Below are positions 40,296 to 50,341 of a stretch of DNA of 50,665 nt, one piece after another. The notes under the pieces were generated by a model. That model was not told the origin of the DNA, made no database searches, and saw only the letters and a program-made list of their open reading frames with translations. Every line of letters begins with the position of its first letter. Position 1 is the first letter of the stretch. The DNA comes from Thermoplasmata archaeon (GTDB taxonomy: Archaea; Thermoplasmatota; Thermoplasmata; Lutacidiplasmatales; UBA184). The position numbers and the translations under genes were made by a program. The DNA is taken from NCBI GenBank assembly GCA_022749935.1, contig JAKIWQ010000009.1, forward strand, positions 1 to 50,665. Reading direction: 5' to 3'.

Positions 40296-40367
40296 GCGGT
40301 TGTGGTCTAGTGGTTAGGACGGTAGCTTCCCAAGCTACCTACTCGGGTTCGAATCCCGACAACCGCA
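40296..40367 (+). tRNA. tRNA-Gly (CCC)
   Basis: Acceptor GCGGTTG/CAACCGC, anticodon arm GGTAGC-TTCCCAA-GCTACC (anticodon CCC), T arm CGGG-TTCGAAT-CCCG, discriminator A at 40367, no encoded CCA and no intron. The integrase gene begins 43 bp downstream, so its 3' end is the probable attachment site of the island. No second copy of the tRNA 3' end was found up to the window edge, so the far end of the island lies outside. Confidence 0.95.
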
Positions 40368-40410
40368 CTTCACTTAAGTTCATATCTGCCGTACGCCTAC
40401 CGAGAGAGTG

Positions 40411-41877
40411 ATGGCTCGTCGGGCGCTCGCGACGGAGGACCCCTTCCGGGACATTCATTCCGTTTCAGGCTACATTGACCGACGGATTGCCCAACTCCGA
40501 GGGGACGGTCCGGTAGGGGACGGCCTGAGGCTCGGGCGTGCCGCGCGTGACGCCATTCTCGATTTCGTCCGTGCGCGGCGGGGGCAGGTCAGCGAACTGA
40601 GAGTCCGTACATACCTTGCCTGGCTCCCGCTTGGCGCCGACAAGCTCGGAGACCGATTCGTCCGACCTGACCGTACCACCCCGGAACTCTTCTACGAGAA
40701 ATTCTCAAACGTCACCTACGCCCGAGGGTCCCGGGCCACCATCGCCCAGTGCCTGATTACCTTCTGGCGCTGGAGTTTGGAGCGCGAAGGTAAGGAATAT
40801 CCGTCGTGGCTCCGAATCAGGCTGGAGAAGTGGAAGTCCACGAGTGGCGCCTCCGACATGCTTACCCGTGAGGACGTGGCTCAGATAGTCGAGCACGCCC
40901 AGAACTTCCGAGATCGGGCATGGATCTGGACCCTCTTCAATTCCGGCTGCCGCCCAGGAGAGGTATACCAACTCAGGATCGGCGATGTGGTCCCCCATAG
41001 TGAGGGCTACATCGAGCTTCGGGTATCACGGGAGAAAGGGTCTGCCCCAGAGCCTGCGCCGGTGTACGAGGACGCTGTTCCCGCCCTGTTGGCTTGGCTG
41101 AACGCTCACCCGGCGAAGGGAGACCCAAAGGCACCCCTTTGGGTCAACTTGGGCGGTGGGCGGTCTGGGAAGGCCGCTACATATCGGGCGATGTACAAGG
41201 CGCTCGAGAGCGCCGCACGGAGAGCCAAGATGGCGAAGCCAGTGACGGCTTATGCTCTCCGCCGTTCTCGACTCACCATTTTAGCGAAGGACCCCGCCGT
41301 CTCCTCGTCTATATTGGAAAAGGTGGCGGGATGGGTCCCGGGCAGCAACGTGGCCCGTCACTATGTGCATCTTAGCGGCAGGGACGTGATCGGGGTCCTG
41401 AACGCCCGTTACGGCGTCAAGACTGCGGGGCCCGGAGAACGTGCTGAAGTACCCCGCACGCCCTCAAAGTGCGGTCGGTGCAAGACAGTGAATCCGCCGG
41501 GGGCGTCCTACTGTTCGACCTGTGGCGGTCCGCTCTCGTTGCCGGCGGTTAGGCAGATTGAGGAAGCACGCGGAGCAGAAGAAAAGTTGGCGGAGTTGCT
41601 CCGGAAGCCAGAGGCAGTCGAATTCCTCGCTCGTTTGCTTGCGGAGCAGGAGAAAAGCAGGGGTCGTACGGGAGGCCGTGCGGCTGAAACGGGAGGACTT
41701 TCCTGGGAAGTATCCCAATCCCCTTCAGGCGCGGATGCCGGCGACACAAACGTTCCACCGTCCAAGAGTCAGCGGGTCGTATCGCTAGCCGATGCGGAGC
41801 GTTTGATTGGGTTCGGCTATGATTTTGTCGCGCCGCTGGGGGCAGATCGCGCCGTGATTCGTGCTTCGTCGAACTGA
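40411..41877 (+). CDS. Tyrosine recombinase/integrase with C-terminal zinc ribbon
   Basis: 488 aa. N-terminal SAM-like core-binding domain (residues about 45-145) and catalytic domain with Arg 181 (CRPGEVYQL), YALRRS with Arg 284 (the usual HxLRH is YxLRR here), Trp 308 (GWVPGS) and nucleophile Tyr 318 (RHYVH). After the catalytic domain comes a zinc ribbon CGRCKTVNPPGASYCSTCGG (Cys 354, 357, 368 and 371), then a coiled coil and variable tail. This build is common in archaeal XerC-like integrases. A GTG directly precedes the ATG. CTTAAGTT at 40373-40380 is a plausible TATA element about 30 nt upstream. Catalyses insertion at the adjacent tRNA-Gly. Confidence 0.92.
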   Translation: MARRALATEDPFRDIHSVSGYIDRRIAQLRGDGPVGDGLRLGRAARDAILDFVRARRGQVSELRVRTYLAWLPLGADKLGDRFVRPDRTTPELFYEKFSNVTYARGSRATIAQCLITFWRWSLEREGKEYPSWLRIRLEKWKSTSGASDMLTREDVAQIVEHAQNFRDRAWIWTLFNSGCRPGEVYQLRIGDVVPHSEGYIELRVSREKGSAPEPAPVYEDAVPALLAWLNAHPAKGDPKAPLWVNLGGGRSGKAATYRAMYKALESAARRAKMAKPVTAYALRRSRLTILAKDPAVSSSILEKVAGWVPGSNVARHYVHLSGRDVIGVLNARYGVKTAGPGERAEVPRTPSKCGRCKTVNPPGASYCSTCGGPLSLPAVRQIEEARGAEEKLAELLRKPEAVEFLARLLAEQEKSRGRTGGRAAETGGLSWEVSQSPSGADAGDTNVPPSKSQRVVSLADAERLIGFGYDFVAPLGADRAVIRASSN

Positions 41878-42406: not shown

Positions 42407-42778
42407 TCAGTCCGGGTCCCTCAGTGTGGGGTCGCTCCGGTACCCCAGCCAGCCCCCAGCAGCCCCAGCAAACAGGCCGAGCACAATGCCGCCATAGAAG
42501 CATGTCACGACGCCGATTCCCGATAGTGTGATCACGACCTTGCCCCACAAGCGGTGGCGGGCTGGTCGGAGTAAGAAAAGTTGGGCGAATGCGAGGACGA
42601 GAATCCCGACCCCGATGCCGACGACCCCCAGTGCTTGGAGCGAGGGTCCGATGAATCTGACACCGAACCAAGTGACAAAGACCCCTGCCTGAGTCCCCAC
42701 CCATATGTACGCCACACCGCCAACGATGTCAACGACCCCGCCTACGGAAGACAGTCGCCAGGCTGTGAACACGGTCAT
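42407..42778 (-). CDS. Small multi-pass membrane protein
   Basis: 123 aa, product not recognised. Three or four hydrophobic helices: VGGVVDIVGGVAYIWVGTQA, FIGPSLQALGVVGIGVGILV (running on into LAFAQLFLL), and VVITLSGIGVVTCFYGGIVL with a Gly/Ala-rich continuation, then a short charged tail. The ATG at 42778 gives a compact membrane protein. The frame is open to an ATG at 42901, which would add a polar N-terminus. It reads toward the integrase and away from the nucleotide operon. Its role may be unrelated to the system or may be a membrane component of it. Confidence 0.55.
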   Translation of the reverse strand: MTVFTAWRLSSVGGVVDIVGGVAYIWVGTQAGVFVTWFGVRFIGPSLQALGVVGIGVGILVLAFAQLFLLRPARHRLWGKVVITLSGIGVVTCFYGGIVLGLFAGAAGGWLGYRSDPTLRDPD

Positions 42779-43526
42779 CGGTAGCTGAGACACCGGGCTT
42801 GGGGGGCCCCCTCTCCACCTTTCCTCATCTGAAGCCGAGTGGGTTGCCCTATGTTCGACGAGCGGTTGAGCGGTATTCGTCAACGCTTCGGGAAGAATCA
42901 TGCGGCACTTAGGCGTGTCATACAGCCAATCTTCGTTCGTATCTCCCCGCTACCGGGGTAAATGCGATCCGCGATTAGCGCCTGTTAACTTGGACCGGGC
43001 GATCCAAGGTCGAGCCCGTATAGTCGGTCTCGCATGCTGATTGCGGACACATTGGTCGGCGGCATTCCCCAAGGAGTCGCGTGCAAGTCGTCGTCCGGCT
43101 CTTCCTTCACGGGAGATTCGCGTTGAGAACATCCGGCTTTGACAAACGTGCGCAACGCCCAGTTGAACTCCCTGCTGCCAAGGGACGCCTTGCCGGAGCA
43201 CCACATGCTTCCAGTGCCATCAATAGCCCACCAGAGGGATGAGCCATTCGTGAAACCCGGAATCGGCTATCGGGAAAGCTTGGCTCACCGGTGAGGCCAT
43301 TCCGCCGGGCGGCCCCAATGTGGTCCAACCTCGAAGGTGGCCCTAGGAAGCAAGTATGCGGGTCCCGTGAAGGATAGAGCTGCCCGGCGGGACTTTTGTG
43401 TATAGCGCACGCAGCCCAGATCACAGACTCAGTCTTCCAAGGGTGCCATAAGGATGAATTCAACGGCCCCACTTTGCCTTGAGGCGAGCGCCAAGCGTAT
43501 GTTAGTCGGGTGCTCCGATCTAATGC
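42779..43526. other. Unassigned 748-bp stretch of the island
   Basis: No gene can be supported. The frames are interrupted or lack protein-like composition. A second copy of TTTGACAAACRTGC lies at 43138-43151. The last 30 bp hold CGTATGTTA (about 43495-43503), a possible TATA element for the operon starting at 43527. Confidence 0.45.
43138..43151 (+). repeat. Dispersed motif TTTGACAAACRTGC, copy 2
   Basis: TTTGACAAACGTGC, one base different from 42177-42190 and in the same orientation, about 960 bp apart in two gene-free stretches. Confidence 0.5.
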
Positions 43527-44261
43527 ATGACTGAGACAAGCTCGGCGGGAAGTGGGGGGAGCCCCCAACAAGACGTACCAGGCGCGGACGCAGGGTACCT
43601 TACCCAGGAGACAATCAGAAGGAGACTTGCCCCAGATCCAGGCGAAGCCCCGCTTATCGAGTGGGGGGAACACCTATCGGCGGAAGTGTCCGATGTGACC
43701 CAATACGTTGACTCTTGGTTCTGCGACCTTCACATGGGTGGCCAAGCGTACCTTAGCTCGAGCAAGCATCTCAGCCGACTAGATTGGAAGCAGGATTTCG
43801 AAATTTCGCCCGGCGACTTTGGGCTCCTCATCACGGAAGAACGCGTGAATATACCCCCTGACCTGGCCGCGTTCATTTCGCTCCGCTTCCAAATCGCCCT
43901 TAGGGGCCTGGTCAACATCAGCGGTCGACATGTTGATCCTGGCTACAAGGGAAGATTGGTCTTCTCCGTATACAATGCAGGAGTCCGCCCGGTCGTGCTT
44001 CGACGTGGCGACCCAATCTTCATGATCACCTTTGCAAAACTGGACCACGTTGTTCCCGACCGCCACGATCCTCGATTCGTGGGGATTGACAGCATCAAGG
44101 CGGAGTGGATGGAGTACGTGAAAGGTCCGCCCGTCTCGCTCGTGAAATTGCATAAGCAAGTGGATCGGTTGGAAATCTATCTTTGGGCTCTGATGTCGGG
44201 CCTAGGCGGGCTTTCCATTGCGGTCGCGGCCGGGCTCATCCTTGGATTGCTGCATTGGTGA
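43527..44261 (+). CDS. Dcd/dUTPase-fold protein with C-terminal membrane helix
   Basis: 244 aa. Residues about 50-180 carry the dCTP deaminase/dUTPase fold: ISPGDFGLLITEERVNIPPD, ISLRFQIALRGLVNISGRHV, DPGYKGRLVFSVYNAG and VLRRGDPIFMITFAKLD. The Dcd catalytic Glu, which in the E. coli enzyme lies in VLEFYN, is replaced here by Ser (LVFSVYN), and the Ser/Arg of GRSSLAR are also changed, so deamination is unlikely; nucleotide binding is still plausible. A coiled linker (KLHKQVDRLEI) and one membrane helix (about 218-243, LSIAVAAGLILGLL) end the protein. The helix would tether it to the inner face of the membrane. First gene of a three-gene operon; the next gene starts 3 bp later. The ATG at 43527 is probably leaderless. 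Confidence 0.75.
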   Translation: MTETSSAGSGGSPQQDVPGADAGYLTQETIRRRLAPDPGEAPLIEWGEHLSAEVSDVTQYVDSWFCDLHMGGQAYLSSSKHLSRLDWKQDFEISPGDFGLLITEERVNIPPDLAAFISLRFQIALRGLVNISGRHVDPGYKGRLVFSVYNAGVRPVVLRRGDPIFMITFAKLDHVVPDRHDPRFVGIDSIKAEWMEYVKGPPVSLVKLHKQVDRLEIYLWALMSGLGGLSIAVAAGLILGLLHW

Positions 44262-44264
44262 GCA

Positions 44265-45308
44265 ATGAGCCGTCGGACCAATTTGAGTAGAGACAGGTCG
44301 CCCCAGTCTCAGCGAGGGGGTATCGACATAGCGGACGACGTTTCATTATCAACTGGTGGATTGTTTAACCAAACCCGGCTCGAACAGTTTAGGCACTATG
44401 TAGCAGAGAGACAAAGGATCTGGGCCGCGCGCAACCTCCGGAAGGAGCCACCCCCTTGGACTATTGACCCAATTCTATCGAGTCAAAGGTTTACCAACGT
44501 GTACCGGGAGCTAGACCCGGGTACCGTGTACGCGAGGACCGAAATTCTAGAAAATGCTGCGGCGGCGCCGGACCGAGTTTTCAACATTATGCTTTATCGA
44601 CTGATTGGAAGAAAGGAGACGCACCGGGCGCTCGGGTTTCAGAAACTCGAGACATTCGACTCGAAGGGGCTCGAGACGGCATTGAAACTCGTGCGTGAAT
44701 CGGGCCAACCCACATTCACTGCGGCGTACATGGTCAGTGGCTACCGATCGATGGGGTCCAGGGACAAGATCGTGAACGTCTCTCGGCTCTTCGGAAGATT
44801 GCACAATGGCTTCGACGAGTTCTATCCTTTCTTGGCACGTGCGGTCAATCTGCCAGCAGCTTATGCGACGGTTCGGAGTCGCGATGGGTTCGGAAACTTT
44901 CTGGCTTACCAAATCCTGGTGGATTTGATGTATCCAATAGAACGCGATGGTGGGCGGGGAATCCTGCCGTTTACACCCGACCAATGGGCGGCCGCCGGGC
45001 CTGGTGCCCAAAAGGGAATCGGCCTGCTAACTGGAGGGAGCGGCGCATCGGATTTGTCGGTCATGCGCTGGCTCCGGTCGCACCAGCGATCTGAATTCGA
45101 GCGGCTCTCAATTGGATTCGAATACCTCAGGGACAGCCGCGGCGTCACTATCGAGATATCGCTTGCGAATATCCAAAACTGCCTTTGCGAATTTTACAAA
45201 TACGAGAAGATACGGGAGGGCACTGGCAGAGGCCGGCGACTCTTCCGGCCTTCGCCGGTCGGTTCGAGCCCCGACGAACTAGGTTCCGAAAACATTGGGG
45301 CGTTCTAG
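44265..45308 (+). CDS. HMUDK_hel-like protein (5-hmdU DNA kinase helical-domain relative)
   Basis: 347 aa. Residues about 40-110 match my recollection of the helical domain found in phage 5-hydroxymethyl-dU DNA kinases and related thymine-hypermodification enzymes: HYVAERQRIWAAR, PPPWTIDPIL (64-70) and QRFTNVYRELDPGT (74-87). The remainder (NIMLYRLIGRKETHRALGF, ARAVNLPAAYATVRSRDGF, FLAYQILVDLMYPI) is all-helical with conserved aromatic and acidic residues. No P-loop is visible, so it is not itself a classical kinase. It lies between the Dcd-fold and ThyA genes with gaps of 3 and 2 bp. The likely role is acting on a modified pyrimidine made by the ThyA-type partner; that is inference. Confidence 0.65.
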   Translation: MSRRTNLSRDRSPQSQRGGIDIADDVSLSTGGLFNQTRLEQFRHYVAERQRIWAARNLRKEPPPWTIDPILSSQRFTNVYRELDPGTVYARTEILENAAAAPDRVFNIMLYRLIGRKETHRALGFQKLETFDSKGLETALKLVRESGQPTFTAAYMVSGYRSMGSRDKIVNVSRLFGRLHNGFDEFYPFLARAVNLPAAYATVRSRDGFGNFLAYQILVDLMYPIERDGGRGILPFTPDQWAAAGPGAQKGIGLLTGGSGASDLSVMRWLRSHQRSEFERLSIGFEYLRDSRGVTIEISLANIQNCLCEFYKYEKIREGTGRGRRLFRPSPVGSSPDELGSENIGAF

Positions 45309-45310
45309 AC

Positions 45311-46366
45311 ATGCACTCATTTGTCGGCACCAATGCGAACTCCGTGTGGCAAGCAGCTGCAAAGGATTTGCTCGCCAGCGGATATGATCAGCCCAGTCGT
45401 GCGGGCCCAACTAAGGAAATCCGGCCAGTGGCGATCCAAATCTCGGATTCACGCGACAGGATAGTCTTCGCCCGGCCGATGAATCCAGCTTTTGCAGTCG
45501 CTGAGGTCCTTTGGATCCTCGCGGGGTCAGATGACGCCGGGTTTGTCGAATTCTGGAATCCCCGAATGAAGGACTATGTCGATCCTGGGGCGCGCCGATT
45601 GCATGGGGCATATGGGGCGCGACTTGGCTCGCGGCCTAAGTTGTCGCGGAGGGCAGAGGCCATCCTTCGGGGCGACATCACCAAACAACCGACACCGATT
45701 GACCAGTTGAAACGGTCCGAACAGATTTTGACGCACTCTCCTGCTACGCGTCAACTCGTCCTTCAGATATGGGACAAGGAAGTCGATCTTCCCAATCCTG
45801 ATCCGGTGTCAAATGATGTCCCTTGCAATGTGGCTAGCCAGCTTCTTGTTAGAGGCGGGCAATTGGAATGGTTCCAGCTCATGCGTTCGACAGATATCGT
45901 CTGGGGATTGACATACAACCTGGTCCAGTGGACAACACTTCAGGAGATAGTCGCGGGCTGGACGGGGCATGGGATCGGGACATTCACTCTCGTTAGCGAC
46001 TCCCTCCACGTATATCGTCGACACCTCGATTCCCTCTCGGCCTGGGCAACTGCCATGCCACCAGTGGGCCTCGGGCGGCCTAGCGACCTTGGCGTAGCGA
46101 GGTATTCGATGTGGGAGCAGCTTTTCGAAAAGGTCGTCGATGACGCCCTTGACATAATGGACGCTCGCTCGGAGCGAGAAATACTGGCCGCGGCAGACCG
46201 GCATTCTGACCTGCCCGGCGGTTACCGAGAGTGGCTGTTTTTGCTCGCGGCCGATGGGCTCCGACGTCAGGGCCATGAAAAACAGGCCCGAGAGCTTGTT
46301 CTTGAGGCGGGAAAGTATTGGTCGACGAGCTGGTTGGCCTGGGCCGATAATCGCGGCCGGACGTAG
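45311..46366 (+). CDS. ThyA-family pyrimidine (hydroxy)methylase
   Basis: 351 aa. Thymidylate-synthase fold with the key residues at E. coli spacing: Glu 65 (EVLWILAG), RRLHGAYGARL, nucleophile Cys 172 (DVPCNV), Arg 192 and Asp 195 (MRSTD), Asn 203 (TYNLVQW; Asn selects uracil, dCMP hydroxymethylases have Asp) and His 233/Tyr 235 (SLHVY). The offsets from the Cys (+20, +23, +31, +61, +63) equal those of E. coli ThyA. The usual C-terminal segment that closes over the folate is replaced by a helical extension, so the product may be 5-hydroxymethyl-dUMP rather than dTMP. Last gene of the operon; ATG 2 bp after the previous stop. Confidence 0.85.
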   Translation: MHSFVGTNANSVWQAAAKDLLASGYDQPSRAGPTKEIRPVAIQISDSRDRIVFARPMNPAFAVAEVLWILAGSDDAGFVEFWNPRMKDYVDPGARRLHGAYGARLGSRPKLSRRAEAILRGDITKQPTPIDQLKRSEQILTHSPATRQLVLQIWDKEVDLPNPDPVSNDVPCNVASQLLVRGGQLEWFQLMRSTDIVWGLTYNLVQWTTLQEIVAGWTGHGIGTFTLVSDSLHVYRRHLDSLSAWATAMPPVGLGRPSDLGVARYSMWEQLFEKVVDDALDIMDARSEREILAAADRHSDLPGGYREWLFLLAADGLRRQGHEKQARELVLEAGKYWSTSWLAWADNRGRT

Positions 46367-46491
46367 TCCCGCTCGGTACAGGATTGAGGTCTCCCAAGGC
46401 TAATGAAGCCAATTGGACCGGTTCGTGACGTCACTCGGCGAACGCAGCGCTTCCAAGCAGTCCTGCGCCTTTGCCCCGGCCAATCGATCGC

Positions 46492-47271
46492 CTAGTGATT
46501 TGGAGCCAGCTCTCTCGAAACTTCTGCGACCAAAGCGGCGAAGGGACGTTTTCCTTTCCGTTTGTCCACAAAAGCCCTCGTTGAGTGCACTACGAGTGTG
46601 CCTAGGGCCGCCCCGGTTTCGTTAGCGACACAGGCTTGAAGTCGGGCGAGGCCCAGGAGATTTCCGGGGACCTTGTATCGATAATCGTGATTTCGATAGA
46701 GGGCTGTCAGATGCACTTTCCCCTCGACAAGTTTGAAGGAGAGGTGTGTCAGGCAAGGGGCGCCCTCTAGTCGACCGCCATCGGACCCACCGTCGTATAG
46801 GGGGAGTTCATAAGCCCCATCTAGAATGCCTAGTTCGTAACATGCCCGGAACGCAATCCCCCTTTTGGAATTGGCCCACTTCATCTTGCGGATCATTCGG
46901 TCGAGCGGATTGACCACGTTTCCCACACTGTCTATTCGGTGGATCATTCGATAGGCGTACCTGCCCCAACTCGAATCACCCTTCTTGAAGAATGCATACT
47001 GTGCCGGATACCTTTCGTAGACTCCCTTCAATCCGTGAAGGCGATACTCCCAGCCGGGGAATATCGTCTCGGCTACTGTGTGAATGGCGTAAGCGTCCTC
47101 ACTTTGATAGAAAGCGTCGATCAGTGTTCTGACACGATTAGCAGCCCCACCGTCCACCCCCGGCGATTCGATGTCTAGGATCACGTTCAGGGTTTCACCG
47201 TTGCCAAGGAGGTACTCAGAGGCGGCAAGCCATGCCGCTGTCCGTGTCGGGGCTGAAAAGACTCTGGTCAA
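46492..47271 (-). CDS. Divergent ThyA-fold protein
   Basis: 259 aa. A second, very different thymidylate-synthase-like protein. Cys 173 (APCLTH), Arg 193 and Asp 196 (YRNHD) and Asn 204 (VPGNLLGLARL) keep exactly the +20, +23 and +31 offsets of ThyA, and SSWGRYAYRM resembles the WGxxYGxxW motif. The later His/Tyr pair is not conserved (HSTRAFV). The C-terminal part is short and basic (DKRKGKRPF). TTG start overlapping the peptidase stop by 4 bp; last gene of the five-gene operon. It may methylate or hydroxymethylate an unusual pyrimidine, possibly in a carrier-bound or nucleic-acid context. Confidence 0.75.
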   Translation of the reverse strand: MTRVFSAPTRTAAWLAASEYLLGNGETLNVILDIESPGVDGGAANRVRTLIDAFYQSEDAYAIHTVAETIFPGWEYRLHGLKGVYERYPAQYAFFKKGDSSWGRYAYRMIHRIDSVGNVVNPLDRMIRKMKWANSKRGIAFRACYELGILDGAYELPLYDGGSDGGRLEGAPCLTHLSFKLVEGKVHLTALYRNHDYRYKVPGNLLGLARLQACVANETGAALGTLVVHSTRAFVDKRKGKRPFAALVAEVSRELAPNH

Positions 47272-47894
47272 GGCGGGACCTCCCCTAGGACCATGACCTC
47301 GAACAAATGGTTCGAGATGAAATCCGAGGACAGCAGCGCGTGGCCATTATCGCCCCAACTCGAGCCCCAACTGTTCCGGATTAGGATATTCGGCTCGCTC
47401 GTTTCGGCTACACCGACCGCCACAACTGCGTGACGCGCGAGAGTCTTTGGACCGCTCTCAATCACCCATGGATCTCTTGGACGGTAGAAGCCCCTCGGCA
47501 AGCTGATTCCAAGGATGGCCACTTGATCTGCACTCAACGTGTGGAGAATAGCGTCAATGTTTGACTTGATCCGAGTAGAGCGCCTGCGGAACACAGTCTG
47601 ACCACTGGGTGGCCTCCAATCTCTTGGCGGGGCGTCTTCGAAGTAAGGACACAATCGTTCCACGGACTGACCTTCGCGCTCAAGGGCAATCATTGCGGCC
47701 GGGATGGTGCAACCATTCGTCGGGTTGCCTCGGGTAGAAAAGAAGTGCAAGTATTCAGGAGAAAGAGTCATTACGGCCCCAAGGGAAAATTCATGGGAAG
47801 CTGTAACGGAGTGCGCAAGGCAGGTTGGCCGTCTCCCCTGGTCACGAACTATTCCGAGCTTCGGCCTAAGATCGACTGTCAGGGGGGGCATCAT
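47268..47894 (-). CDS. Papain-fold (C1) cysteine peptidase without propeptide
   Basis: 208 aa. Catalytic Cys 25 (RDQGRRPTCLAHS) with oxyanion Gln 19, His 155 (RHAVVAVG) and Asn 174 (RNSWGSSWGDNG): the complete papain set at nearly papain numbering. There is no signal peptide and no propeptide, so it is made in the cytoplasm in a form that could be active at once. The upstream gene, which overlaps by 4 bp (ATGA), encodes a chagasin-type inhibitor domain, the known class of inhibitor for this peptidase family. Its substrate may be one of the neighbouring proteins or a cell-suicide target. Confidence 0.88.
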   Translation of the reverse strand: MMPPLTVDLRPKLGIVRDQGRRPTCLAHSVTASHEFSLGAVMTLSPEYLHFFSTRGNPTNGCTIPAAMIALEREGQSVERLCPYFEDAPPRDWRPPSGQTVFRRRSTRIKSNIDAILHTLSADQVAILGISLPRGFYRPRDPWVIESGPKTLARHAVVAVGVAETSEPNILIRNSWGSSWGDNGHALLSSDFISNHLFEVMVLGEVPP

Positions 47895-48883
47895 GATGCC
47901 CCACCGCCTTCGAGGAGAGCCCGCTTGACTTGCCTAGCGAGCCCGGATTCCTCAGGACCGTAATTCTGTACGAGGATCTCGACTCGGGCTGCCGCTTCAT
48001 TGTTCCAGGGCCGACGGTCTGCCAACTCAAGGTTCAAGCTCCCTGTTTCCTTCGCCCGTAGGATGAGTCGTCGGGAAACATCCCCACCATACTCCTCTCC
48101 GATGCTGCCCCGCTCCTGGCTGATTTCAAAACCTGTCTTCGCGCCGTCCAGATCCCAAAGGAATCCAGAAGATGACCGGTCAATCAATTCCGTGACGAAT
48201 ACATCGAACGGCCCGGCTTCTATGATGGATCCGGAATCAGAAGGTGTAAGCATCCAGACGTCGGTTTTAGGGTCGGGGAGCTGGAGGCCGGCATTCGCCG
48301 CGCGCTTGACTTCTTGCAGGTTTGTGTTTTCGGCGAGCCCTCGGGCCGCTGCCAAAGGGAGAATGTTGGCTCCGAACAGGGACCAGCACATCGCCCGAAA
48401 GCTTACACCCATGCGAAGTGCAAGCTGATAAACGATGCTTGGCTCCCTAAGTCGGGGAGCTTTCCAACCGTAACGGTTGGCCAGCTGCACAATCCTACTT
48501 TTCGGGGCGAGAAGCTCGGATGCGAAGGATTCAGCCGCCTGTTCCTCGATGGGAATAGGGTTCCCGCCCAAACTGGCCGAGTCGCTTTCGGGACCGTCGA
48601 ATTGGGTCCTGTGGTCCATCACAATGTGCCCCAATTCGTGGGCAAGAGTGAAACGCTGTGTACCTAGCCCCCTGTTTGTCGTGATTAGGATTCCCCGGGC
48701 ATCATCGTCAACCACAACCGTTCCACCGAGTAAGTTGCGAATAGGTCTGAAGAGGACTGGGAATCCGAGAGCCGCTGTGGCGTGAATGATATCGAAGCCG
48801 GTTCGCTTCCCATAGGGAAACATGTCCCGAATTCGTGCAGCCTCGGAAGTCGCCCGGAGTATCCGGCTTCTACGGTCCGCCAT
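47891..48883 (-). CDS. M78 (ImmA/IrrE) metallopeptidase fused to chagasin-like inhibitor
   Basis: 330 aa. Residues about 25-200 are an ImmA/IrrE peptidase: zinc motif HELGH (82-86) in TLAHELGHIVMDH and the third-ligand region EEQAAESFASELL (113-125). Residues about 215-308 carry the three loops of chagasin (I42) inhibitors: SSSGFLW (237-243; compare NPTTGYxW), GEEYGGD (262-268) and DRRPWN (289-294). The usual target of such inhibitors is the papain family, and a C1 peptidase is the next gene with a 4-bp overlap. The start overlaps the XRE gene by 14 bp. A zinc peptidase joined to an inhibitor suggests it holds the C1 enzyme until a signal. Confidence 0.83.
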   Translation of the reverse strand: MADRRSRILRATSEAARIRDMFPYGKRTGFDIIHATAALGFPVLFRPIRNLLGGTVVVDDDARGILITTNRGLGTQRFTLAHELGHIVMDHRTQFDGPESDSASLGGNPIPIEEQAAESFASELLAPKSRIVQLANRYGWKAPRLREPSIVYQLALRMGVSFRAMCWSLFGANILPLAAARGLAENTNLQEVKRAANAGLQLPDPKTDVWMLTPSDSGSIIEAGPFDVFVTELIDRSSSGFLWDLDGAKTGFEISQERGSIGEEYGGDVSRRLILRAKETGSLNLELADRRPWNNEAAARVEILVQNYGPEESGLARQVKRALLEGGGAS

Positions 48884-49229
48884 CGCCCCGCTTCCTTTTC
48901 CGGGATTGGAGGAACTGGGCGAACCGGACCACTTCGGCCCGGTCCTCGGGTGTAAGTTTCGCGGCGGTACGTGTTACCAACGCAATGCCTGGTTGGTCGG
49001 ATACCACCGTCTCGTCCGTGCCGACAAGGTCCCCGACACCACATTCGAACAACTTGGCCATGCTACGCAGCTCGAGGGAATCGACCCCCCGATCGCCCGT
49101 TTCAATCAAGGAAATCGAGGATCGGGACACACCAATGTATTGCGCGACCTCTTCTTGTGAGAACCCTCGGTACGACCGAGCTTCCTTGATGCGATTCCCC
49201 AAGGCCACCCGTTCTTGACTTTCACTCAT
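48870..49229 (-). CDS. XRE-family transcriptional regulator
   Basis: 119 aa. Helix-turn-helix at residues about 12-65 (LGNRIKEARSYRGFSQEEVAQYIGVSRSSISLIETGDRGVD). The C-terminal part contains DRAEVVRFAQFLQSRKRK. XRE/ImmR-type repressors are often paired with an M78 peptidase that cleaves them, as in ImmR/ImmA, and here the M78 gene is the next, overlapping gene. It probably binds the palindromes at 49571-49587 and 49646-49662. Overlaps the carrier-like gene by 4 bp (ATGA). Confidence 0.88.
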   Translation of the reverse strand: MSESQERVALGNRIKEARSYRGFSQEEVAQYIGVSRSSISLIETGDRGVDSLELRSMAKLFECGVGDLVGTDETVVSDQPGIALVTRTAAKLTPEDRAEVVRFAQFLQSRKRKRGDGGP

Positions 49230-49567
49230 GCTACCTTACCACCGTCCTTGGTCTTCTTTGGCGGGCGTCGCCTAACCTCATCGAGCATTTTCGGAACCAG
49301 GTCATCGACCGCCTCTTCGGGGCTGTCGTAGCCCCCAGAACGGATCAAGGTTGGATTCAGGGGAATCCGAAGATGTTTTTCGAATATCGGCGACGTCTCG
49401 GCAACAGCTTTGGAGTCAATTGCGGGCATGCTATTCCATACATCAGTTGCGGTGGCGCCAGTGGAGTCGGGGGGTCTCTCGGCGAACACCTCCCACTCCT
49501 TCTGTATCTGCCGGAGTGTAGATAGGAGTTCAGCCCGGAGAGCCTGCTCCACTGCCGCAATCGTCAC
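49226..49567 (-). CDS. Acyl-carrier-protein-like small protein
   Basis: 113 aa. An N-terminal helix (AAVEQALRAELLSTLRQIQKE) leads to AIDSKAVAETSPIFEKHLRI and then PLNPTLIRSGGYDSPEEAVD. This resembles carrier proteins: DS (Ser 52, the possible phosphopantetheine site), helix II with E/F spacing, IP 16-17 residues after the Ser (18-19 in E. coli ACP) and a final helix after YDSPEEA. The tail is basic (PKKTKDGGK). A phosphopantetheinyl transferase gene lies 117 bp upstream on the same strand, which supports the idea. GTG start, first gene of the operon, just downstream of the palindromic operator. The alternative is a small DNA-binding or antitoxin-type protein. Confidence 0.6.
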   Translation of the reverse strand: MTIAAVEQALRAELLSTLRQIQKEWEVFAERPPDSTGATATDVWNSMPAIDSKAVAETSPIFEKHLRIPLNPTLIRSGGYDSPEEAVDDLVPKMLDEVRRRPPKKTKDGGKVA

Positions 49568-49570
49568 GGA

Positions 49571-49587
49571 TGTTCGATTATCGAACA
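49571..49587 (-). promoter_or_regulatory. Perfect 17-bp palindrome (operator) at the operon start
   Basis: TGTTCGATTATCGAACA: 8-bp arms around one central base. It lies between the TATA box and the GTG at 49567 and covers the predicted transcription start. Likely operator of the XRE regulator encoded in the operon. Confidence 0.7.
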
Positions 49588-49598
49588 GTCATGCGGCG

Positions 49599-49607
49599 CC
49601 TTATACC
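49599..49607 (-). promoter_or_regulatory. TATA box of the five-gene operon
   Basis: GGTATAAGG on the minus strand with a purine-rich AAA just upstream (BRE-like), centred about 36 nt from the GTG; predicted transcription start inside the palindrome. Confidence 0.65.
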
Positions 49608-49645
49608 TTTCGGGTCGCCTTGCTCCTCGAAAAGTGCGGCGACAA

Positions 49646-49662
49646 TGTTCGAGATTAGAACA
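49646..49662 (-). promoter_or_regulatory. Second, imperfect operator copy
   Basis: TGTTCGAGATTAGAACA: the same outer TGTTC/GAACA arms as the perfect palindrome, with mismatches near the centre. Spaced 75 bp centre to centre, upstream of the TATA box. Confidence 0.5.
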
Positions 49663-49684
49663 GGATGCGAAATCGCGACTTTCA

Positions 49685-50341
49685 CTAAACTGCTCTTCGG
49701 TTTGAGGTCGCCGCTGAAACGACCCAGCCCTCGATTACCTTTGCCCGGACCTTGATTCTATGGTCTCGTGGGCATGAAGCAATCGCGTTGAAAAAGTTTT
49801 CCGGCCCCGGTTCCCACGACAGCTGAACGTCTTGGAATTCGAGTTGGCTCCGCTCCAGCGGGTAGAAGGCTTTGAACACAGATTCCTTACAGCAGAACGC
49901 CAACAAGACCCCCTCACCCGGCGGTGTGCCCGGCGGGAGACCCTCGGGGGCGATACTAGCCTGCATCGAGGTCAATTCGCGACCGCCCGTTCGCTCAAGG
50001 TCAACTCCAAGGGAAGAAATAGTTCGAACAGGAGCCAATGCTCCGAGGACGACGGTGCCCTTGTGAGTTAGACTTCCTGCATAATCTAACGGCCAATAGC
50101 GTTGCCCGTCAGGGGCCCGACCGATATCCCTCTGGTCTTCCAGTCCCGCAAGTTGCATTAGTGTGCGCAAGCAGGCGGAAGTCGCTTCATCTCGGACGGT
50201 CCGCATGAACCTGGCTCGATCCTTTCGAGCGATCTGACTAGGGGGAGGGAGCCAGGCTTCGAACGACCCACCCGCCACGGCTGCCTCGGGCAGAAGGTGC
50301 CGGAGAGTCGTCAATGTCGGGTGGCCCGAGTTGAGGTCCAC
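49685..50341 (-). CDS. 4'-Phosphopantetheinyl transferase, EntD/Sfp type
   Basis: 218 aa. Transfers phosphopantetheine from CoA to a Ser of a carrier protein. Motifs: GRAPDGQRYWP (74-84), YAGSLTHKG (87-95), LGVDLERTG (111-119; Asp 114 and Glu 116 bind Mg) and FCCKESVFKAFYP (149-161). Length fits the EntD branch. Carrier-protein pathways of the bacterial type are uncommon in archaea, so this gene implies a dedicated partner, most simply the DS-containing protein encoded 117 bp downstream. GTG start at 50341; it has no clear ribosome binding site. It is on the same strand as the five-gene operon but with that operon's promoter in between. Confidence 0.87.
   Translation of the reverse strand: MDLNSGHPTLTTLRHLLPEAAVAGGSFEAWLPPPSQIARKDRARFMRTVRDEATSACLRTLMQLAGLEDQRDIGRAPDGQRYWPLDYAGSLTHKGTVVLGALAPVRTISSLGVDLERTGGRELTSMQASIAPEGLPPGTPPGEGVLLAFCCKESVFKAFYPLERSQLEFQDVQLSWEPGPENFFNAIASCPRDHRIKVRAKVIEGWVVSAATSNRRAV

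Follow-up and report, generated by a model that had tools for sequence, protein, structure and literature searches.

A mobile operon of archaea and bacteria that pairs a thymidylate synthase-fold protein with a carrier protein, and its candidate role in nucleotide modification

Introduction

Units of Escherichia coli that combine thymidylate synthase, dNMP kinase and 5-hydroxymethyldeoxyuridine (5hmdU) kinase domains have been validated as protecting cells from phage, and units built from aGPT-Pplase, MazG, MazG-C, dUTPase and uracil-DNA glycosylase (UDG) have been predicted to act in defense, as described in the main text of the DefensePredictor study (PMC13092281). Here, we analyze a nine-gene cassette in a 50,665-nucleotide stretch (the window) of contig JAKIWQ010000009.1 from a Thermoplasmata archaeon. 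Its minus-strand unit encodes a phosphopantetheine carrier protein (gene H), an XRE-family repressor (G), an M78 metallopeptidase fused to a chagasin-like domain (F), a C1 peptidase (E) and a divergent thymidylate synthase (TS)-fold protein that we name ThyD (D), preceded by a 4'-phosphopantetheinyl transferase (PPTase; I); the convergent plus-strand unit encodes a dCTP deaminase (DCD)-like protein (A), an HMUDK_hel protein (B) and a ThyA-type enzyme (C). Like the DefensePredictor units, the cassette has TS-fold and HMUDK_hel proteins in one unit along with MazG_C, UDG and dUTPase-type parts; unlike the validated ones, the window unit has no dNMP/thymidylate kinase, and the main text of that study yielded no carrier protein, M78 regulator, PPTase, C1 peptidase, chagasin or ThyD family (PMC13092281). 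By analogy with these units, the cassette may protect cells from phage.

Other described systems resemble single parts. In phage thymidine hypermodification, which joins a dUMP hydroxymethylase to a 5-HMUDK and tailoring steps, genes B and C find their nearest phage relatives and C keeps the catalytic Cys, but B lacks the P-loop 5hmdU DNA kinase, no tailoring pyridoxal phosphate or S-adenosylmethionine enzymes are present, ThyD is absent from phage records and regulation is of the XRE/M78 type. An adjacent XRE and active-site-intact M78 (HExxH), with a palindromic operator before the operon, are shared with ImmR-ImmA and CapH-CapP, from which the cassette differs in that its M78 is fused to a C1-linked chagasin domain, and in having no CD-NTase or phage context; the likeness suggests that M78 might cleave XRE when triggered by a signal. 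ThyD has the fold, catalytic Cys and phosphate-binding Arg of the TS/dCMP hydroxylase superfamily (ThyA, MilA and AfhB), but is always paired with a carrier protein and mostly lacks several residues of that superfamily (see below), and H has the phosphopantetheine Ser in a DS motif seen in acyl and peptidyl carrier proteins. The parts are drawn from known superfamilies, those of the second, plus-strand module from an already predicted kind of defense, and the core combination was found nowhere described in the literature searched, a scope that excludes supplements and the likely prior predictions of Iyer 2013 and Burroughs 2015.

Results

Five core genes form one conserved mobile operon

A tblastn search of plasmids with ThyD returned 22 records, a subset of which was opened for gene order. 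The order carrier-XRE-M78-(C1)-ThyD is found on the opened plasmids of Haloarcula, Bradyrhizobium, Acuticoccus, Sulfitobacter, Burkholderia, Sinorhizobium, Tardibacter and Rhizobium, and the Streptomyces and Allocoleopsis copies read carrier-XRE-M78-ThyD without C1. Scanning 84,980 genomes gave 259 ThyD relatives, 80 of which were fetched; these come from Pseudomonadota, Planctomycetota, Myxococcota, Acidobacteriota, Nitrospinota and one Actinomycetota contig. The core is common to this archaeon, haloarchaea and at least seven bacterial phyla, with gene order kept in nearly all of ≈90 loci, many of them on plasmids or islands of haloarchaeal, proteobacterial, acidobacterial, myxobacterial, planctomycete, nitrospinal, streptomycete and cyanobacterial lineages. 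In the 70 loci with full flanks, the carrier accompanies ThyD in all 70, XRE and M78 in 69 each and C1 in 65. Hidden Markov models (HMMs) of these families gave 86 (carrier), 85 (C1), 88 (M78) and 93 (XRE) matches within 4.5 kb of ThyD versus 0, 0, 2 and 8, respectively, in 0.7 Mb of outer flank. In the reverse test on plasmids, ThyD is encoded on 16 of the 19 records that have this C1 type and on 17 of the 19 that have this M78 type (two ThyD records were unlisted in the plasmid search, and one of each count rests on an organism tally); the C1-type exceptions, Deinococcus and Sporomusa, lack the cassette. Among 385 alphaproteobacterial genomes, ThyD occurs in seven, HMUDK_hel in eight and both in four (p ≈ 3e-6), in each case on one contig. 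Thirteen of the 22 plasmids with ThyD are conjugative, and integrases, transposases and conjugation genes lie in the locus flanks. Carrier, XRE, M78-chagasin, C1 and ThyD are one conserved mobile operon. The initial annotation of this DNA had taken the nine genes for one system rather than chance neighbors, a view borne out by the recurrence of the core in unrelated lineages and by the HMUDK_hel, DCD-like and sometimes ThyA genes that adjoin it elsewhere.

Some individual loci deserve mention. Locus L053 was considered as a natural minimal carrier-ThyD locus and rejected, since its ThyD has an in-frame stop and is treated as decayed; in Rhizobium ruizarguesonis (L104:5965-6799), ThyD is annotated as two neighboring open reading frames, by gene splitting or decay. 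Caspase-family, CHAT and pYEATS genes directly adjoin the cassette on the rhizobial plasmids L104, L009 and L003.

A conserved operator and a C1-chagasin pair

Of 86 loci, 47 have the motif TGTYnGAnnnTCnRACA at the same position ahead of the carrier gene, whereas the remaining sequence of the loci predicts 0.12; those that bear it span this archaeon to proteobacteria. It was sought and not found before the operons of the second module, including the plus-strand operon of the window. Control of the core operon by XRE through this putative operator, in line with the model of the initial annotation, is well supported by the conserved motif.

Both proteolytic components retain their active sites: HELGH of the M78 protein is invariant in the alignment, as is the papain triad (Cys/His/Asn) of the C1 peptidase in an 84-member set. 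The I42 chagasin domain of the window protein is weak in Pfam and was confirmed with a family HMM; a chagasin HMM built from one half of the loci with C1 recovered the domain in 41 of 41 held-out ones. In the C1-less loci L007, L008, L095 and L129 there is no chagasin, and C1-less L067 keeps a diverged copy. Chagasin, present with C1 and gone from four of five such loci, is therefore tied to C1, so that the proposed chagasin-C1 link holds across loci. C1 and chagasin are missing from copies in cyanobacteria and streptomycetes and from some others, and because complete loci exist without them, both are accessory. This last point bears on a toxin-antitoxin-like abortive system, with C1 as a toxin that chagasin keeps in check and nucleotide enzymes that sense or signal infection. 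The invariant catalytic residues of C1, the confinement of chagasin to C1 loci save one case and the resemblance of XRE/M78 to CapH/CapP regulators would all suit such a system, which we nevertheless judge quite unlikely, as C1 is gone from the otherwise complete L007, L008, L067, L095 and L129 while ThyD, carrier and HMUDK/UDG stay.

ThyD, its carrier protein and a dedicated PPTase

The ThyD sequence falls below the Pfam threshold and matches a methanogen TS at 1e-11. Its AlphaFold (AF2) model, with a predicted local distance difference test score (pLDDT) of 91, has the TS fold (Foldseek E of 1e-10 to TS) and counts viral TS and dCMP hydroxymethylases among its neighbors, and a profile-profile comparison of ThyD with C aligns the catalytic Cys. 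The nucleophilic Cys173, the phosphate-binding Arg193, Gly203 and Gly207 are invariant in an alignment of 60 sequences. Carrier H is not itself matched by Pfam; its syntenic orthologue in L007 is (PF00550, 1e-7), and the phosphopantetheine Ser52 of the DS motif is invariant in 87 of 87 sequences. PPTase I lies under the Pfam cut-off and contains the motifs GVDLE and FCCKESVFKA. A search of the host genome found no PPTase or PP-binding protein besides those of the island, ThyX is present and makes the host dTMP, and the only ThyA-family genes found in that genome are the two on the island. The carrier and PPTase therefore form a dedicated pair, a point beyond the initial annotation, and the two TS-fold proteins are dispensable for dTMP. 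A PPTase or AcpS accompanies other loci too, including 27 of the 34 HMUDK-type loci; a correlation with that type (27/34 versus 2/34) was rejected as not significant when the ThyD tree is taken into account.

No carrier-loading enzyme recurs near the loci, and for this reason we suggest that the phosphopantetheine thiol itself may join the chemistry of ThyD. Thymidylate synthase forms a C5-methylene intermediate that thiols can trap, and we know of no established link between carrier-protein chemistry and nucleotide-based conflict. The carrier and PPTase, with the similarity of the ThyD model to the CMP hydroxymethylase MilA (template modeling score of 0.59), could instead belong to a small biosynthetic cluster for a mildiomycin-like modified-nucleoside metabolite, in which the carrier would be an ordinary acyl carrier protein. 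This is highly improbable given that no adenylation, ketosynthase, other recurrent tailoring or export gene is found near the loci, that DNA glycosylase-like partners are the invariant companions of the core, and that the core is distributed as a mobile element would be.

The second module is exchangeable

Either HMUDK_hel or a divergent UDG (PF03167) adjoins ThyD in the 70 loci with full flanks, UDG in 34 and HMUDK in 34, with both in none and neither in two; the wider set comprises 42 UDG, 40 HMUDK and again none with both. At least seven HMUDK/UDG changes are needed on the ThyD tree, so that the two have been swapped repeatedly, which argues for equivalent jobs; this replacement of one by the other was likewise not part of the initial annotation. 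The nucleotide-pool protein of the module is MazG, which bears a MazG_C domain, or the DCD-like protein; a helical family present at 16 loci and genes similar to TMK (dNMP/thymidylate kinase) complete the set, the latter standing by eight related loci and not in the window unit. The A-B-C set occurs near the core also in Anaeromyxobacter (L030) and Phycisphaerales (L044), and L023 has DCD and ThyA with no HMUDK seen. The plus-strand unit is an exchangeable and non-obligatory module.

Gene A had been put forward as a membrane-tethered Dcd-fold protein, and a plain dCTP deaminase is rejected as unlikely: in all 17 aligned members of its family, Ser, Ala or Gly follows the HVDPG motif in place of what we take, from E. 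coli DCD, to be the deaminase Glu. A transmembrane helix is found in 25 of 26 members. Protein B consists only of the HMUDK_hel helical domain, with no P-loop kinase domain; its AlphaFold model (pLDDT of 83) has as best neighbors in the PDB the helix-hairpin-helix (HhH) 8-oxoguanine glycosylases (Foldseek probability of 0.87-0.91, E of 0.2-0.3) and weakly resembles the phage 5-phosphomethyldeoxyuridine (5-PmdU) glycinyltransferase PUGT. The nearest phage relatives of B are hypermodification proteins, and an HMUDK_hel query gave no match among viral contigs. Enzyme C retains the catalytic Cys, RSTD, Asn and HxY motifs and is closest to SPO1-type phage dUMP hydroxymethylases by tblastn. These relatives of B and C, the faint likeness to PUGT and the plasmid location could indicate that the cassette hypermodifies pyrimidines in the plasmid or island that carries it, much as phages treat thymidine, to evade host restriction, with UDG/HMUDK_hel and MazG editing wrongly modified bases or dNTPs. 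We consider this unlikely, since ThyD is found in none of 50,697 phage records and on one viral contig though hypermodification is used mainly by phages, the cassette is on chromosomal contigs too, most loci are without polymerase or kinase, and the XRE/M78/C1 switch suits an induced response more than constitutive modification. Uracil metabolism is also touched by each of MazG, the DCD-like protein, UDG and ThyA, as it would be if these genes merely kept dUTP and uracil out of mobile-element DNA and formed no conflict system. Such nucleotide-pool hygiene is barely plausible: it leaves carrier, PPTase, C1 and chagasin unexplained, the DCD family has no deaminase Glu, and dTMP already comes from the host ThyX.

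Parts of the module also appear in other settings. Loci L121 and L122 are convergent HMUDK_hel and MazG_C pairs without the core, that is, an independent module, and on an Erythrobacter plasmid (L102:4282-9652) the HMUDK_hel gene sits between dnaQ and dnaE. The 16-locus helical family (L019-L067, e.g., L022:10801-11391 and L002:3391-3966) has invariant His, Asp and Glu residues, replaces MazG in DCD/HMUDK-type loci and gave no match in Pfam or the PDB. A calcineurin-like metallophosphoesterase of ≈724 residues stands beside seven UDG-type loci (L009:9861-12035, L003, L058, L070, L087, L090 and L093).

Proposed mechanism

On balance, we favor the view that the cassette is mobile, regulates itself, modifies nucleotides and most likely serves defense. 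An inducible defense is preferred because of the known and predicted nucleotide-modification defense units, the genes in the flanks and the M78/XRE switch. In the mechanism that we propose, XRE would repress the core operon until a stress or invasion signal leads M78 to cleave it, and the chagasin domain would hold C1 in check. PPTase would load the carrier with its phosphopantetheine thiol, and ThyD could use its conserved nucleophilic Cys to activate position C5/C6 of a pyrimidine deoxynucleotide; acting jointly with the carrier thiol, it would make or pass on a 5-substituted deoxynucleotide. Enzymes of the second module might first supply the dUMP pool and afterwards work on altered-base DNA by excision or further tailoring, with the outcome that replicating foreign DNA is damaged or marked. 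Two better known designs were rejected: a simple restriction-modification system, as there is no methyltransferase or nuclease, and a cyclic oligonucleotide-based antiphage signaling system (CBASS), as no CD-NTase or effector is matched.

Several points weigh against this reading. The substrate, product and phage phenotype of every member are predictions, and a search of PADLOC-DB gave no system match beyond generic HTH/M78. ThyD has no equivalents of E. coli TS Asp169, His207 and Tyr209 and has mostly lost Glu58 in the alignments (in a residue numbering, and with roles of Asp169/His207/Tyr209 in folate and dUMP 3'-OH binding, that we take as given); the absence of these folate and 3'-OH residues could mean a different chemistry, or binding without catalysis. 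The HhH glycosylase-like fold of HMUDK_hel is suggestive, coming from weak Foldseek matches to a model. The flanks hold some Gabija-, Abi- and Mads-like genes, a defense-gene content not gauged against a control set. Finally, HMUDK_hel, with or without MazG, is also found apart from the core; the two operons of the initial annotation are thus in part independent as regards the plus-strand unit, and the core shows no such separation. From the model offered there, unity, XRE control and the chagasin-C1 link stand, whereas C1 and chagasin are accessory and the plus-strand unit is not obligatory; release of ThyA-type enzymes by proteolysis and DNA as the substrate gained no support or stay unproven.

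A more specific proposal is tentative, and we hold it with considerable doubt: a TS-fold enzyme would form a 5-substituted pyrimidine deoxynucleotide bound to a dedicated carrier, drawing on the carrier's phosphopantetheine thiol instead of or with folate. This product would serve as an antiviral agent or a DNA mark and as the substrate of an interchangeable glycosylase-like enzyme, under a protease-controlled switch, in a system common to archaea and bacteria. If true, this would be a new class of nucleotide chemistry. The system itself is mobile and widespread, archaea included, and is recognized by no library searched. The conserved carrier serine, the ThyD cysteine, the operator, the C1-chagasin pair and the HMUDK/UDG exchange offer direct handles for testing, and the exchange is in addition a clue to the role of the widespread "aGPT-Pplase/HMUDK_hel" domain.

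Gene layout and island setting

All nine genes are open at the positions first reported (Table 1) and form two compact convergent units, as the initial annotation had described. The minus-strand unit reads H-G-F-E-D with each junction overlapping by 4 to 14 bp, and gene I lies 117 bp upstream of H; intergenic gaps in the plus-strand unit A-B-C are 2 to 3 bp.

Table 1. Positions of the cassette genes, regulatory sites and island features in the window
Feature	Position	Strand	Basis or remark
A, DCD/dUTPase-fold protein with C-terminal membrane helix	43527..44261	+	DCD 9.7e-16; family alignment
B, HMUDK_hel (5hmdU DNA kinase helical domain) protein	44265..45308	+	PF18723 1.1e-53; AF2 and Foldseek
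C, ThyA-type enzyme	45311..46366	+	Thymidylat_synt 4e-21; phrog_5131 9e-52; tblastn; alignment
D, ThyD, divergent TS-fold protein	46492..47271	-	AF2; Foldseek; profile match to C; 60-sequence alignment
E, papain-family (C1) cysteine peptidase	47268..47894	-	PF00112 2e-7; alignments
F, M78 (ImmA/IrrE) metallopeptidase fused to chagasin-like C1-inhibitor domain	47891..48883	-	PF06114 3e-12; PF09394 0.005
G, XRE-family repressor	48870..49229	-	HTH_31 5e-11; capH-like 1e-10
H, phosphopantetheine carrier protein	49226..49567	-	Alignment; PF00550 in orthologue L007
I, Sfp/PptT-type PPTase	49685..50341	-	ACPS 1e-4; NCBIfam PptT 2e-7
Putative palindromic operator TGTTCGATAATCGAACA	49571..49587	-	3 nt before H start codon, ≈10 nt after TATA-like box
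TATA-like box (GGTATAAGGC)	49598..49607	-	Between two operator copies; read from sequence, putative function
Second operator-like copy, one core mismatch	49646..49662	-	Beyond TATA-like box; motif scan
tRNA-Gly(CCC)	40296..40368	+	ARAGORN
Tyrosine recombinase (integrase) with zinc ribbon	40408..41877	+	Phage_integrase 8e-13

The host contig (C89) is part of a 1.79-Mb metagenome-assembled genome that is 95% complete and archaeal, its small subunit rRNA being matched best by the archaeal model. G+C content falls from 64 to 76% in the host part to 55 to 58% past the tRNA-Gly and tyrosine recombinase. In other genomes of the same genus similarity stops at the 3' end of the tRNA-Gly, which is likely the integration site of the island, and ThyD was not found in two same-genus genomes. 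An attachment-site (att) repeat of the tRNA-Gly 3' end was not found in the contig, and the far border of the island is therefore unseen. Between the integrase and the cassette, at positions 42407-42901 of the window, lies a gene for a 164-residue multi-pass membrane protein without a Pfam match.

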